This document shows, piece after piece, positions 17,331 to 25,504 of a stretch of 64,000 bases of DNA. The notes under the pieces are model-generated. The model did no database searches. It saw only the letters and a program-made list of their open reading frames with translations, and was not told the DNA's origin. Source of the stretch: Siderastrea radians (Eukaryota; Cnidaria; Anthozoa; Scleractinia; Rhizangiidae); NCBI GenBank assembly GCA_964017195.1, contig OZ024892.1, positions 7,396,366-7,460,365 of the forward strand, written 5' to 3'. The position numbers were made by a program, and so were the translations under genes. Every line of letters begins with the position of its first letter. Positions within the stretch are counted from its first letter, which is position 1.

Positions 17331-19759
17331 TCAAACCAGAAACGCGCCAAAGTAGGTGTGAAAGCTCCACATGAAAATTTTGACGGTGTAACGCGCGGTC
17401 AACGTAATGACGTCACCAGCGTTAAGTTTGAACACCCCGCTTGCTTCCAAGGGTCCTTGGCCTTTTGCTACATCCAGTGGTTGAATCATGGTAATTTCTT
17501 TGTTGTTAACACGTACATAGACCCTGTCTATGCTGTGAAAGTAAAGTAGTGCGTAGATGTAGTACCGTCCAGGGGTAGGCACAGCCAGTTTTCCGTCTTG
17601 GTACGTCATGCCGCCTACGAGGTGGCTGTTTTTGTTACTGACATCCCAGTCTTTGATTACTGAAAGGCAAATTAGAATCGCCGTCAAGCAAGCTAGAAAC
17701 GCCATTGCAGCTTTACCGTGGATTACACCTTGGCCATAATTAGGCCATTATCTTATTCCAAAACTGCAGGAAACCGAGTTTAACTGCGAGTGCTAATTTT
17801 GTCCAATCAGGTTCTGAATGATCCCCAAAAGTCTGGTTTGGTTCTGCTCCAAAAGACATTTGAACAAAAACAACCTTTTTCGGTTATGTAGAAATCATGT
17901 TAAGTGTTTGGGAAACAGGTTACTCTCTATAAGTAGTCTGTGATGACAAAGAGGATTTTTCAGGACATTTCCCAAATTTCTGATTTTTAACCTATGTGAC
18001 CCTTAATACCTGCATTTGCTTGATAGGACACTGCTCCTTTAGTGGCAGCCTCGATGTGAGCAGATGGCTTGTTTGGATCCTGCGGTAGAAAAGAAAGAGA
18101 AATATTGGTGTGATATGTCCTATGTTACTGGTAAGTCATGGATATGGTTGAGCTAAGATTTGACAGTTTTTTACTGATTGTGTTAATAACTAATGGCTGA
18201 GAAAATGCAACTTACAGCTAAGAAATCTAAATAACTGTCAGCTCAGAAAATTTAGGTTTCCTTCCTTGAACGTGTCACACTTTTAGGCGAGAAATGGCCA
18301 AAAAATTTAAGCCAACTGAAAAATTACGCACCCATATTCAAACACTACTTAAAACTCGCTGTAGAGCTAGGAACCCTTTACTTAAAGCTGCATGTGGAGA
18401 ACTGAGTGGAGCTTTAAAGTCATCTCACTGGTGTTCATGAAGCTGCAGCATTTCTATAGACCTGCCATTTCTCTTGGAATTTCTTAGAAAGAGCATTAAC
18501 TCTGAGGGCCTCCAGTGTATAGAATTTTTTTTAACGTGAAGTTCAACATCAGAATGTTTATGTGTCTGTTACCTGCAGAGGACACTTGCAAGGTGTTCCT
18601 TTGTCCCCTTTATCACCTTTGGTTCCTGTGTCTCCTTTTTCTCCCTTTTCGCCCTAAAAAGATTAATAAAGTGTTACATTTGGTATATGTTAGATTCACA
18701 TTTTGGTTTTTACGCGCTAAGTCTGTTTAGTGTCAATATCAGCGATTGATTACTTTACACAACAGGGCCCGGTTGTTCAAAGCAGGATTAAGCTTACCCA
18801 GGATTAGCACCAAATTTTAATTTACTTTTATTAACGACGTGCATTACAGTAAATTTTTTTCACTTAACAACTTGACTTTGGCTGCTTTCAAATTGTCAAT
18901 TAAAATTAGTAGCTGAAATGCTTTTAAACAAAGCTGAGTCGAAAACTTTGGTCGGTATTTGTTTGACCCATTGTTGGGGCTTATCGGCTGTCGAAAAACC
19001 GGGTCCAGAAGTACAAACAGGAAGAAACGGTCTCACGTATTAACGAGTGTAAAAGTTGTAATGCTATCTTACCTTTTGGCCACCTTTTCCATGAACATTA
19101 ATGGTAATGGGAGTACCTGGCGATGCACAAACGTTCTGTGAAACAAAAATAAGATTGAGGAAAACAATTCCGATACACGAATTTTGTATTGACTTATCTT
19201 GAATAAGTAAAGTTGCAAGTTTATGTACAATCTAGTCTGAGACAGGATCTTCTGATCCCGGCGACATTATTTTATTACATTTTTAAGGCCAAAATTTTAC
19301 TTCTCGTTTTAGTGGAACAGTGGAATTCAAACTAAATTGGAGCTACAACAACTTCTTGAACTACGGACGTGAAGGTGATTTGTACTATATAAGTCAGCGA
19401 TAAACTCGGGCTATTAAAAGTTCTGAAACATTTCTATTTTTTTGTCTGAAACGTGCAATAAAGTCATTTTTTCTCGGTGGTGAATATTCCAACACGGCTT
19501 CAAGACGTTGTTGAGCGAGGTTCTCGGCGGCCGTTCTAGTCAGTTCCCCGGGGTCAGCCGGTTCAAACGCGACTATCTGCGAAAGAGGGAAACGACTTGA
19601 CTACGCCTGCCTGCAACAAAAAGATCGGAACATTGAGAAGCTATTCCCTGGATTAAAAAAACACGATAATCTTACTTTGTTTCGAGTTGTATCATCTGCT
19701 TGGCAGAAATACAAGTTGGTGCAAATCAGGCCAAAAAAGCCGATAAAAAGGAACTTCAT
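17331..19759 (-). CDS. Secreted collagen-TNF domain protein, copy A
   Basis: Five exons on the minus strand: 19,759-19,676 (signal peptide MKFLFIGFFGLICTNLYFC), 19,135-19,073 (NVCASPGTPITINVHGKGGQ), 18,653-18,573 (seven G-x-y triplets then CKC), 18,079-18,010 (start of the TNF domain, PSAHIEA) and 17,659-17,331 (rest of the TNF domain, GRYYIYA and the end TYFGAFLV). All borders are AG/GT and phases agree (0,0,0,1), giving 208 residues. The F-G-A-F-L end and the A-H-x-E start are TNF-superfamily marks, and a collagen stalk before the domain resembles ectodysplasin, here with a cleavable signal instead of a membrane anchor. It would form trimers outside the cell, and the Cys residues could link chains. 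A possible AATAAA lies at 17,138-17,133. Function as a cytokine-like or lectin-like immune effector is inference. Confidence 0.85.
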
Positions 19760-20702
19760 CACGACAGCGCTCAACTTACTCTGCAAAATAAGAACCTAGA
19801 ATGAGTCACTTACGAAATGGTTGTTTATTTTAAAAATACGTCCTTTATAAAATTAAAGGCAAGTGAAAACAAGATCTGCCTTTCTAAAAAAGGCTCATGT
19901 GCTTATCGTTTAGTGCATGATGTAATAACTTATAACGAGGCATTCAAATTTTATTCGTATTCAAAGAACTCGAATTTATTTCTTGTTTAGTAATAATACG
20001 TGGGCTTATTTTTTCAGTCCTCTCGTTTCCCATCAAAAATGGTTATATGAGAAGAATTTTTTCTAGTAGCTGCAACTAATACACAACTGGTCGACTGAGG
20101 TTCTCCTTGTCTGTCCCGTTTTGCACTTTCATTTTGATACTTCTCGTGTATGAAAAATATGTACACCTATTAGCATGAGACAGCCAACATATATTCAGAT
20201 CTTACTGCTGTAGCCATGCTTGACTAAGTACTGAACAAAAAAAAAATCATAAAAAAATAGATATGACAAGCTTAACAAAGGAAATAGCCGGAAGGTAATA
20301 GATGCCTCCAGCCACTTTGTCCTTGCGAAGTCATACAAGACTTGAAACTTTCAAACCACAACAAATTCTTAGATTGAAATAATACTGGCCTCAAATATTA
20401 GCCTGCTTTGCCACTCTACGACGCCCTTAGAGCGATTTTCCTCGGACCGTGAAACAGTTACTGTACAAGTATATACTGTTACGCCAAATTAGTTGCTGCT
20501 AGTCAAGGGACGGCTGAGGTCTATTAGCTTCTATTCCCAAAAGGAGATTAGTCTAAATCAAAACACAAGAAAAACAACACAAAATGGACAAGCACAAATA
20601 TACAGTGAACGTGTGGTTTATTTTTCCTTTATTACTGATTCTCGAGTCATGTTACGACAGCGGAAATGCACATGTATATGATACTTGTTGCGACATTAAT
20701 TT

Positions 20703-22602
20703 TTACCACCTCGTGTAATTTTTTGGGAAAATTCCTCCACAGAAGTTACAAAAACTGCCTTGTTGGTCAGTGGAAATACTTTTAAAGCAGTAAGGGCACT
20801 CACGCGGGTTGACATGCTGCATGGTCGAGAGTTGTTGCGAATATCTATTCTCTTCCATACTTTTGAAAACATTTACATTTGTTGCACTTTTCTCTGGCTT
20901 ATGAAAAGAATATAAATTAAAATTAGCTTTCGCTGCTCGTTTTCTTCGACGGTCTTGATAATATCTCTCAATGCTGCTGTTTCAACTGGCATGCTCGCCA
21001 GTTGCTTGATTCTTTCTGCGGACTTTGCCGTGGTGGTTTCGGTGAAGCATTTCTCGTCATCGTCCGGGCCTGTAAGGTCGATGATTCTTAGATTCTCCGC
21101 TTCAGCTACTGCATCGTGAGTGTGCTCAACTTCCGGATCGTCAGACGAGTCCAAGATTTCTTGAACGACTGCATCCATATCCCCTTGTGCTCGAGCAAGA
21201 AGGGAGGCTAATTTTACCTCATTTGCGAATGGCAAGACCTTTTTCAAGTTTTCCAACTTCTGAATAAAGTGCTGCTGAGTCGGAACAACTGGCGAAGGGG
21301 ACGGATGTGCTTGAGCCGTTGGGGAGAAAGTAGTGACTGTCGCAGTGCTTGACGCGCCGAGGAGTCTCTCTCGTCTGGGCTGTCTTTGGTGCAACTGAAT
21401 TGCCGTTTTTAACACGGTCACCGGGTTGACGTCTTTCACTGTGGCGGCGATTTCTTGTGAATACGAATTAATGCTGTTGTATAGGTGCCGGTGTTTCTCA
21501 AGCTGCTCCTGTTGTTTAGCTGAAATTGTAATTAAATTACAATATTTTTCAATTTTATACTAGGGAAATAGGTCTAATCTTACACAGACAATATTAAAAC
21601 TATTTTGAACACAGACAAGTATGCAAATAAAAATAGGCTGGGCTATAGCCTATTTACATGCCGTTTACTCACTTCTTTTACTGAGGGAACACTGGGGGTC
21701 TCCAAAACCGTACCGTAAAACCGCAAGATATCCTCTCAAATACCGAAAACCTAACCTGCGATCAGGCCAAATTTTCACGCTCCTTACATTCTCTTACGGG
21801 ATTTTTCGCGCGACCACAAAAAGACAGAGAGTAAATGAGAGCGCGAAATAATTCGCCTGATCGCAGGTTACCGAAAACCGCTCTGAAACTTGCGCAAAAT
21901 TCCTTCTCTTACTAACATTTTAAGGAAAGTTCCCTCACCGAAATACCGTACAAAATTAGACATTTTACCGAACACACCTGCTCAAAATGCTAAAATAACG
22001 CGTACCGTCGTACTGGATGAAACCGCAACCCCACAGTTGTGAATCGAAAATACCGTAAAACCGTAAGAAAAATCGCTCAGAACCGTAATCCCGCAAACCC
22101 CAATGTACCCCTCCGTTACAAAGCTTGAATTTGTATCGGTACCGGAGTAAAATAGTGACGAGGTCCTCTAGAAGATCAAAATTCCCCTTGAAATATTTAA
22201 CGCTTTAATTTTAAGTCGGGATAGTTAGTCGTTGTAATCATGTTTACCTTTCCTTTGCTCTGACTTTGGCTTGCTTTTCTCCATTGCCTTCTTTGCTGCT
22301 TCAAAATTTGCCACCTTCAGAACAAACATAGGTTCACTATCCAGTTGAGCGGTCATTTCTGGAAACCGTACAGCTTGGTGGTCTTCTTCTTTCTTTGCTG
22401 TGCAGGACTGCGGCAGGTTAGTGCACCAGCGTTTTCCCTTGTCCTCATTCGAATGACGATCTGTCATTCGAAGTGCGAGGAGGTGCTTGTGACTTGCACA
22501 TTTAGGGCAGGAACAGTTTGCATAAGGACAATTTCTTTTATGTCCTTTTAGCAGCTTGACTTGGCCGTGTAAGCGGCATTTACCACATGTCCTCCCCGAC
22601 AT
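20703..22602 (-). CDS. DM-domain (DMRT-like) protein with CUE-like segment, inside the transposon
   Basis: Exon at 22,602-22,248 starts at ATG just after a TTTGCTTTAG acceptor-like tract and encodes a full DM domain: C6, C9, H12, H21, C25, C30, C32, C35 match the CX2CX2HX8HX3CX4CXCX2C spacing of doublesex/mab-3 proteins. Donor AAAG|GTAAAC (phase 1) joins TTTCAG|CT at 21,519. The second exon runs open to 20,873, so the two exons give 333 residues. Residues about 203-244 (IQKLENLKKVLPF..LARAQGDMDAVVQEIL) match the CUE-like DMA segment that follows the DM domain in many DMRT proteins. Another frame (20,894-20,703) gives a CX2CX12CX2C zinc-ribbon-like end; no strong intron separates them, so it is a small exon or a frameshift. 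An extended start at 22,713 is possible. A DNA-binding role is expected; whether it serves host or element is unknown. Confidence 0.75.
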
Positions 22603-22822
22603 ACTAAAGCAAATATGTGTGGTACACACGGTGTTCAAAATCCCCAACGTGTAATCTTCACAATAAATTTTATTTGCATCTACGATATGTTGCACGTGCA
22701 ACACAAGTTTCATTGTCTTTTTTAATTGCCCCTAGCTCCCTCCATTGTTTGCTCTATACATTCACAAATACATTCGAGTATTTGTTTTTATATGATTCAA
22801 AACATGACATTTAATTTTTAGA

Positions 22823-23836
22823 ATGTCGTGGTGTATAAACCAGAACCACGGTTGCTACCGTTTTGGAAGTTCTTACCCGACACAAAAAAGACTTCAGATC
22901 ATTGTGACGTTTTTGGAAACGTTGTCCATAGCTAACGCGTCAAGAGTTTGTCGGGTTTCCTACAATTGTGTAGACCAATATGTGCGATTATTTCAACAAA
23001 GGGCAACATTGATACCTTCGGTATGCAATAATGTGCGTCCAAGACAAATGACATGGTGGAAGGCAACATATCTTGAAGCTCTTGTCAGAATGTACCCCAC
23101 TCTCTACCTTCGTGAGGTGCAACAGATACTTGCGAGCGATTTCCTTCTGGCTCCCGGCGATGTTCCATCTATAGCATCAATAGCGAAACTGTTCATAAGG
23201 CTCCGCATCACTCGAAAGAAATGCATTCACGTGGCTCAGGAAAGGATGACACCCTACAATCTCCATTGTCGTCAACTTTTTTTTCAATGGCGAAGGACTG
23301 TTGACCCAGCTAAAGTTTATTTTTTCGACGAGACACACTTTAATTGCGAGACTGATGAGCGTGAATATGGAAGGACAGACTCAGGATTTGCATGTACGGT
23401 CCTTCGTCAGAAAAGCAGAGCACGAGCTGGAAAGTTTTCCACTCTAGGTGTTTGTGGATTTAACGAGGGAGTCTTGCAGGCAATTCCAGTTGAAGGAAAT
23501 TTCACAGCAGATCTAATAACTGATGTAATAGAGAACCAAGTGCTGCCACTCTTGCCCGCGAACAGTTATTTGGTGGCTGATAATGCAAGTGTACATAATG
23601 AAATCGTAATATGCAGAATTTTAGCTAGAAAGAACATTACTCTTGTTAAACTGCCAGGCTATAGTTATGATTTAAATCCCATCGAAATGGTCTTTGGACA
23701 AGCAAAAGCAATTGCTCGTTTCACCCCTGGTTTCTTGAAAGAAAATAGCATGTTGGCAATTGTGAGCGCATTTGAACAAATCAGCCCGTTAAACGTAAGA
23801 CACTTTTACCAACGATCTTGGAGAGTGCTTCTGTAG
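22823..23836 (+). CDS. IS630/Tc1/mariner transposase, DD34E
   Basis: A single 337-residue intact frame. Residues 17-58 resemble a helix-turn-helix DNA-binding region (TQKRLQIIVTFLETL..ASRVCRVSYNCV). The catalytic triad is D169 (VYFFDETHFN), D253 (YLVADNASVHN) and E288 (SYDLNPIEMVFG), with 34 residues between the second D and E. The length fits the family. The enzyme would bind the TIRs and cut and paste the element into TA. It starts about 220 bp from the divergent DM gene, so both probably share one promoter region. No stop or frameshift, so it may be active. Confidence 0.92.
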   Translation: MSWCINQNHGCYRFGSSYPTQKRLQIIVTFLETLSIANASRVCRVSYNCVDQYVRLFQQRATLIPSVCNNVRPRQMTWWKATYLEALVRMYPTLYLREVQQILASDFLLAPGDVPSIASIAKLFIRLRITRKKCIHVAQERMTPYNLHCRQLFFQWRRTVDPAKVYFFDETHFNCETDEREYGRTDSGFACTVLRQKSRARAGKFSTLGVCGFNEGVLQAIPVEGNFTADLITDVIENQVLPLLPANSYLVADNASVHNEIVICRILARKNITLVKLPGYSYDLNPIEMVFGQAKAIARFTPGFLKENSMLAIVSAFEQISPLNVRHFYQRSWRVLL

Positions 23837-24724
23837 AATAAAGTGTCAAAAGCAATGAACTCAAGCAAGCTGGACCAGTGATTATTTTATTAACGTAATC
23901 CTGAACAGTTCTGAATTACAATAAACTTGTGAGTTTTTAGACAAAAGGGTTTGTTGTCATGAATAGACCTAGTCATTAGACCTATTGATAGACTGTAGTC
24001 TGATCTAAAGATTAGACTAGACTAATACACTTTAATAGATACTATTATACACTAACTACTAGAAACTGTTTCATGGTCCGACGAAAATTGCTCTATTATT
24101 TCTGATATTATTGTTCTAGTTTTTTGCTTCATTGATGGTCAGGTGACACGACAGAATGATGCAAATGATATTTTAAAATAATATTGTTGACTGTTTTCTA
24201 GTTCTTTTTGAACAACTAATAAATGTCAGGGACAATAGATTATACTTTGTGAGCGGGTTATTGACTTTATTCCGATTAAAAAATATTTATATTTTATTAT
24301 TAAAAGCCGTAAACATGATTATTTCAAAGAAAAGGCCGGCAACCAAAACGTCCTGGATTCGCTGCCGCTCCAGAAATGTTACATGCACTTTGTACAGCAT
24401 AATGAACAGCACCACAGAAGAAGGACTGCTCAGTAGCTTACATTTAAAGTTTATTCCCGACTTAGTCAAAAGTCAGGACCACTTTGCATAGCATAATGAA
24501 CGGCTCAACAGTTAAGTTCGGTGAAACGGCACACTTTCAGTGAAATTCCGAAACGACTCAAGAGGTTTCTGGATCAAATTTGTTACTCCATGTTAGCTAT
24601 AAACTTAAAAGTTCTGTTTAAGGTTTACTGATCACTCTGAGAAGGAGCGAGACGGCATGAACACGGCTGTTTGCACAATGGCACGGGCGTTGATGAAACG
24701 AAAATCAAAGATGTGAATCTCACT

Positions 24725-24788
24725 TGCCCGCTCGACAGAAATACAAATTGGCGTAAACCAGTGCAACGAAGGCAAAAACAAACTTCAC
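24725..24788 (-). pseudogene. Second signal-peptide exon of unit 1, broken
   Basis: Corresponds to the intact exon at 62,826-62,906. The ATG is GTG here, and about 18 bp before the donor are missing, leaving AAG TGA. The hydrophobic core FVFAFVALVYANLYFC is still readable. Confidence 0.65.
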
Positions 24789-25504
24789 CTTGACATGCAG
24801 CTCAGGCTGAAATCAACTCTGCAAATTAAGGAGTTAGAATGAGTAACATGAAATGACTGTTTGTTAAAATGTTTTTTATGAAAGGTAAGTAAAAAGAAGA
24901 ACTGCCTTAGCTAAAAAAATACCCACGTGCTTATCGTTTAGGGCATGACGCAATAACTGATGACGAGATATTCATATTATATTCATATTCTGAGGACTTG
25001 AAATTACTTCTTGTTCAGGAATTAAGCATGATTCGTTATTTTTTGCAGAGCCCACCAGCAAGCCACGTAGAACGTTAGTTGTACGTAGAGATTAGCAACA
25101 TCAGTAGAATTATTCTTTCAAGGTCGGCACGAATACACGCACGGTTTGGAAATATTAACACAGTCCTAGCGCTTCTTCCAGTTTCTCTCTATGTTTTGTA
25201 CCCGAAAGGTTTCGTGAAATAAAGGAAACAAGAATGGTAGCATATCCAGCAGACATTTTCGTTTTGTACAAACATCACTGACCTACAACCCAGGAAGTAA
25301 GTTTTATAGCCGTGACGGTTACAACATAATTGTAACCCTTTGAGCCTCAATGGTGATCAGCATCAAACGTCTCCTCACAATATCAGTGCATTATAACACA
25401 TACAAGTCATAAGAATTAAGGAATTGATCACTGAAGATGAATTGTCTTCATTTTTAAACAAGTTCTCCCAAATACTGCTCAACAAAATATGTACATGTGT
25501 AAAT

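Follow-up and report, generated by a model that had tools for sequence, protein, structure and literature searches.

Animals use DM proteins in sex determination, and Tc1/mariner transposons are usually thought to need a single protein. The rule that such elements encode only a transposase has exceptions, because multi-gene Tc1/mariner relatives exist in ciliates: the available part of their description has the Tec/TBE elements as DD34E transposons with three open reading frames (ORFs), one of them in the complement (PMC7325037). In the available parts of two further reports, the Myb-like protein of Harbinger elements interacts with the transposase, enables joint nuclear import and binds the ends (PMC9179366), and its Harbinger3_DR counterpart recognises a subterminal motif of 9 bp (PMC9710019). 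The dm-W gene of Xenopus, as the accessible portion of its account has it, is a DM gene containing transposon-derived sequence (PMC9250109). Here we describe a two-gene Tc1/mariner lineage, a DD34E transposase with a head-to-head spliced DM-domain gene, found in 64,000 nucleotides of Siderastrea radians DNA (assembly GCA_964017195.1, contig OZ024892.1, positions 7,396,366 to 7,460,365 of the forward strand; this whole stretch is the window, in whose positions plain coordinates are given). We show that the DM gene lies inside the ends of the element copies, that its layout and intron donor are kept in old sister families, and that its protein is kept by selection. A lineage that keeps such a gene, a mobile relative of animal sex-determination factors, offers a new handle on why some transposases need partners.

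The element resembles other DD34E Tc1/mariner transposons in its TA sites, short terminal inverted repeats (TIRs), DD34E triad and DDE_3 domain, and its transposase model matches Mos1 and the Sleeping Beauty catalytic domain, but it has a second, spliced gene and a transposase whose N-terminus matches the paired box along its whole length. With PIF/Harbinger it shares a two-gene, cut-and-paste design with a DNA-binding second gene and two gene trees that largely agree (PMC9179366, PMC9710019, in the parts available); it differs in transposase superfamily, in its TA target site and in having a DM in place of a Myb domain, and neither Harbinger nor Myb models are among the Pfam matches of the window proteins, which are DDE_3, PAX and DM. 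Tec/TBE elements differ in TIRs of ~700 bp and, for Tec, in a second ORF that encodes a site-specific recombinase rather than a DM protein, again by the available part of the source (PMC7325037). In dm-W, to the extent that its source is available, a host gene absorbed transposon DNA, the opposite of the element here (PMC9250109). The element gene has the DM zinc module of metazoan DMRTs, yet it is mobile and multi-copy. No transposon with a DM gene was found in the open-access literature searched, a result that speaks for that literature and those search terms only; a preliminary sequence-only reading of this DNA, which likewise knew of no described example, had taken transposase-only coding as the norm for Tc1/mariner, which stands as a usual rule with the ciliate exceptions (PMC7325037, available part). 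The parts of the element are as follows.

20430-24093: Tc1/mariner element, TA-flanked, with the transposase and the head-to-head DM gene between its ends
20428-20462, plus strand: left TIR including TA, from inverted-repeat comparison; near-identical in 17 full-length copies
20519-20555, minus strand: left subterminal pair of GTCTA, retained in 16/17 and 17/17 copies
20703-21519, minus strand: DM gene exon 2, with a weak CUE-like segment and a C-terminal zinc ribbon CX2CX12CX2C
21520-22247, minus strand: DM gene intron, GT..AG, with a AAAGGTAAG-like donor of a kind present in divergent loci too
22248-22602, minus strand: DM gene exon 1, encoding the DM domain; 118 codons plus one base
22603-22822, strand not assigned: divergent region of 220 bp separating the two start codons, without TAGAC
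22823-23836, plus strand: DD34E transposase, 337 aa, with a paired-box-like N-terminal domain and a DDE_3 catalytic domain
23938-24022, plus strand: right subterminal array of six TAGAC, each retained in 15-17/17 copies
24061-24095, minus strand: right TIR including TA, from inverted-repeat comparison; near-identical in 17 full-length copies

The TIRs, 35 nt each, are 89% complementary, and each has TA at its outer end; the TA sites had been read correctly from the sequence, with the length put at 30 bp. The genome search proposed in that reading, run against the 805-Mb genome with the left 271 bp of the element, a probe that stops short of the DM gene, gives 40 match rows at 38 loci, and thus neither is the DM gene confined to this site nor is the TIR pair absent elsewhere. 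DM exon 1 is complete in one BLAST piece (small gaps allowed) in 34 of the 38 loci, as read from the match list, and incomplete in L014, L015, L027 and L043; L056, 17 kb from L043, is probably the remainder of the L043 copy. Seventeen loci hold the full length in one piece, and with it, by definition, the DM gene; the other 21 are deleted, inserted into or broken. The full-length copies have pairwise identities of 97.1-99.4% (median 98.3%), and TA is found at the right end in all 17 and at the left end in 16 (AG in L026); this family, the main family below, is young. As these 17 copies all sit at different places and all contain the DM gene, the gene moves with the element. The window taken singly, and nothing further, would fit an element that landed by chance next to or within a host DMRT gene at a single site, an explanation that is refuted, with practically no probability left to it, by TIRs that enclose the DM gene at 17 places and, with other TIRs, in L048, L049 and L052.

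The transposase ORF, earlier called intact, is indeed open from 22823 to 23836, carries the catalytic triad and matches DDE_3 (6.1e-18) and PAX (4.4e-8). All 20 aligned sequences, that of the window copy among them, have D169, D253 and E288, and the 34 residues between D253 and E288 make the enzyme DD34E. In a fold search with the predicted model (mean pLDDT 77.8), the Mos1 transpososome is the top match (6.6e-8, TM 0.43) and the catalytic domain of Sleeping Beauty comes next; the paired domain of Pax6 is matched as well (7.8e-5). The relative P0011 matches 1pdn at 9.6e-7, with a paired-box match that spans the N-terminus including the first strand-turn region, and PAX is matched in 19 of the 20 aligned transposases (E up to 0.1). 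A protein search with the transposase finds 55 relatives, the organisms named being Actinostola and Exaiptasia. Compared among their own relatives only, such paired-box transposase elements may lie near the origin of the paired domain.

Exon 1 of the DM gene matches Pfam DM at 1.2e-11 (44.7 bits, cut-off 27), and all eight zinc ligands follow the spacing C-x2-C-x2-H-x8-H-x3-C-x4-C-x-C-x2-C, the same as in a host DMRT. This spacing is satisfied by the main family, the Exaiptasia protein P0074 and L055; L048 and L070, which are decayed copies, deviate. Across the 17 full-length copies the splice sites are GT in 16 and AG in 16. The divergent spliced DM gene of the sequence-only reading thus holds in its ligands, layout and junction (22,248|21,519), but the window copy itself is frame-broken: relative to open copies, exon 2 has a one-base frame change that puts the zinc ribbon out of frame, although the CX2CX12CX2C tail predicted there exists. 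Less remains of the segment labelled CUE/DMA-like, as Pfam CUE is matched in two of nine relatives, at best at 0.0091 and below its cut-off, and Pfam DMA (PF03474) has no match up to E 10 in P0001, P0002 and P0008, nor up to E 1 in nine relatives, where HMMER filters discard weak matches. The structure model of exon 2 is poor (mean pLDDT 45.6). As judged by eye from the sequence list, most host DM domains continue past the zinc module into a helix stretch, in place of which the element proteins have other sequence. A DM domain above the Pfam cut-off, a host genome with 11 strong DM matches of its own and the weak CUE-like segment could be taken to mean that the protein mimics host DMRTs, vying with them for sites or partners and thereby keeping germ cells permissive to transposition; with the helix stretch replaced, no DMA match and a branch of 1.32 to the host DM domains, we consider this decidedly unlikely.

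Searches with the element proteins reach well beyond the main family. The DM protein of L024 finds 10 relatives, and exon 1 finds 12, partly the main family itself and including P0074 from Exaiptasia diaphana, which is annotated as DMRT A1 and by eye is continuous across the predicted junction. P0074, known here from its protein sequence only, groups with the transposon DM proteins, and in genomes like these, genes labelled DMRT may belong to transposons. The exon-2 search with P0002 gives 76 rows in the window's genome. Among 10 divergent exon-2 loci fetched, L056 belongs to the main family, and in seven of the other nine the DM gene is paired with a divergently oriented transposase; at L054, exon 2 alone is matched on the DM side. 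L048, L049 and L052 have common TIRs that differ from those of the main family (TAGAGTGATTTCACTTAACCCGTGAAA or one base off), and L054 has one end of TAGAGTGATTTCACTTAACCCGTGAAA type. The intron donor is AAAGGTAAG in L048 and L052, GAAGGTAAG in L049 and AAAAGGTCGG in L055, and is less clear in L047. Divergent and decayed families thus keep the two genes head to head, with the intron donor and the combination of DM domain and zinc ribbon, and since related families carry the DM gene too, the gene appears to be an old functional component of the transposon. Of the two alternatives offered earlier, recent capture is unsupported because far older families share the gene, and an element that uses a DM factor fits better. 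Viral contigs yield no relative to any of the three queries used, namely the DM exon and the alignments of the transposase and of exon 2.

Comparison of the divergent loci with the intact L024 copy (966 codons of exon 1, 2231 of exon 2 and 2009 of the transposase) gives identities at codon positions 1, 2 and 3 of 0.64, 0.70 and 0.43 for exon 1, 0.54, 0.63 and 0.32 for exon 2, and 0.70, 0.77 and 0.43 for the transposase. The proportion of synonymous differences (pS) is near saturation at 0.65-0.92, and that of nonsynonymous differences (pN) in the DM exons is 0.25-0.47. The ratio of nonsynonymous to synonymous substitution (dN/dS), a check suggested at the outset, is 0.22-0.28 for exon 1 in the five of 10 loci where it is computable (L048, L049, L052, L070 and L076), four of which are apparently one family, and 0.14 (L052) and 0.10 (L054) for the transposase. 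Both genes look to be kept by selection as proteins. Within the young family, the DM gene is open (start, splice sites, stop) in four of the 17 full-length copies (L024, L009, L038 and L033). An open gene need not be a working one: L009 carries a deletion in frame, and L038 is missing the third zinc ligand. The transposase is open in six copies, the window copy among them, and both genes are open only in L024. Transposons do acquire host genes, and the breakage of the DM gene in 13 copies could mark it as a captured host fragment carried as a functionless passenger, yet the transposase is likewise broken in 11 of 17. Together with the layout and donor common to old families, the conserved amino acids set against near-saturated synonymous sites, and the restriction of the gene to one transposase clade described next, this largely refutes the passenger explanation already, leaving it highly improbable.

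We then asked which transposases are accompanied by the DM gene. The transposase survey covers the best 120 of 391 candidates in 126 listed rows, of which 97 were entered, the other 29 being pieces of entered loci; neighbours within 6 kb were taken from all 88 DM-search rows and all 76 exon-2 rows. Loci were divided into close and distant at 38% identity to P0020, a line set after seeing the list. Among the matches listed, a DM or exon-2 match lies within 6 kb at 48 of 54 close-transposase loci (54 of 60 rows), many of the 48 being main-family copies, compared with 0 of 37 distant Tc1/mariner loci. In the transposase tree, eight DM-bearing rows from this genome fall in one 13-row group (100/99), which also includes five database rows whose DNA context is unseen. 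A DM phylogeny, also suggested in the sequence-only reading, was built with 23 rows, L047 being left out because its zinc module is incomplete. Ten element-type rows, P0074 included, form one group apart from the host DM domains on a branch of 1.32, with support of 92/100, slightly below the tool's 95 mark; the 11 host domains are not one group, and constraining them to one is not rejected (p-AU 0.487). The pairs L048/L049 and L053/L055 are grouped in both trees. No host DM domain groups with those of the element, and recent capture from a host DMRT was rejected. The tree fits a single origin of the element DM domain and is silent on whether it passed from host to transposon or the reverse; that animal DM genes, like Pax, go back to an ancient two-gene transposon encoding a paired-box transposase and a DM protein strikes us as very unlikely.

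The subterminal DNA of the element is rich in TAGAC, read as GTCTA on the other strand. The window copy has two at the left and six at the right in the terminal 222 bp each (8 in 444 bp), a count reached by 0 of 500 Markov sequences, with three TAGAC in the 3168-bp interior and a window background of 1.13 per kb; all 11 motifs are retained, each in 15-17 of the 17 copies. At the ends of L048, L049 and L052, which are one family, 1, 0 and 0 of 500 Markov sequences have as many. In ends not used to choose the motif, taken as ~300 bp past the last aligned exon-2 or transposase codon, as many are found in 6 (L050), 8 (L053), 0 (L054) and 3 (L055) of 500 on the DM side, and in 2 of 500 at the transposase-side end of L054; recounted alongside them, the DM-side end of L052 gives 0 of 500. 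Most of the ends compared, though not all, are enriched.

We judge it slightly better than even that the DM protein assists transposition as an accessory factor bound to subterminal DNA. Its DM domain would bind the subterminal DNA of the element, with the TAGAC arrays as candidate sites, its C-terminal half may contact the transposase or a host factor, and the protein could thereby help to pair the ends or recruit the transposase to them, in the manner of Harbinger's Myb-like protein. That the element uses a DM factor had been proposed from the sequence with the TIRs or promoter as target; such use is the better fit, neither target is shown, and the subterminal arrays are the better candidate. 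The start codons that point apart across 220 bp, and the established role of DM proteins as transcription factors, would also suit a transcriptional self-regulator that activates the divergent promoter in the germ line or, to limit damage, keeps it repressed. We regard this as possible and on the whole unlikely, as that 220-bp region is devoid of TAGAC; neither the main nor the L048 element matches the DMRT consensus TACAWTGTA at eight or more of its nine positions (Markov means 0.92 and 0.85), an absence that weighs little because fewer than one is expected by chance.

Several observations weigh against the accessory-factor reading. TAGAC was picked after inspecting two families and could be the site of the transposase's own paired-like domain; L047 shows little enrichment (82 of 500 on the DM side, 217 of 500 on the transposase side), L051 is weak on the DM side (39 of 500), and L054 is not independent because it belongs to the L048 family by TIR and tree place. 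L050 and L051 have no transposase or exon 1 within the 4.3 kb fetched, and among the matches listed six of the 54 close-transposase loci have no DM match within 6 kb (C3:33748701, C13:8104980, C2:74256782, C10:540832, C10:484801 and C13:29623135); the last, 9.9 kb from the L031 DM exon, is probably the separated end of the L031 copy. In the codon comparison, tblastn is biased toward conserved sequence, and most of the divergent loci are decayed, with several from one family. The fifth zinc ligand is Tyr in L048, L049 and L076, all three read copies of that older family, and the whole DM module may be dispensable in L048-type copies, or those copies may be decayed.

Other DM-like genes and repeats were seen in the genome and in the window. 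L077 was considered as an older sister element and is not counted in the system: its DM-like gene lies 5.4 kb from a sister-clade transposase, in convergent orientation, and this transposase falls outside the 13-row group. The L077 DM-like gene occurs at at least three places among the best 40 of 699 candidates (96% at C2, 82-88% at C6), with a transposase that close at only one of the three among the matches listed. It spans L077:7099-9477 on the minus strand, with CUE-like stretches (Pfam CUE 0.011, below cut-off), a C-terminal zinc ribbon and no clear element ends. A different divergent DM-like module is found in L073 (CRRCKGHG..CPFANCQCATC), L074 and C6:43.4-44.1 Mb, with several weak matches within ~0.8 Mb. 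Inside the DM intron, a 24-nt inverted repeat (TAACCTGCGATCAGGC..) at 21752-21870, with arms 71 nt apart, is perhaps a small nested element. The element is flanked by direct repeats at 19572-19994 and 24533-25022, 73-84% identical and ~5.0 kb apart, as though seated in an old tandem duplication.

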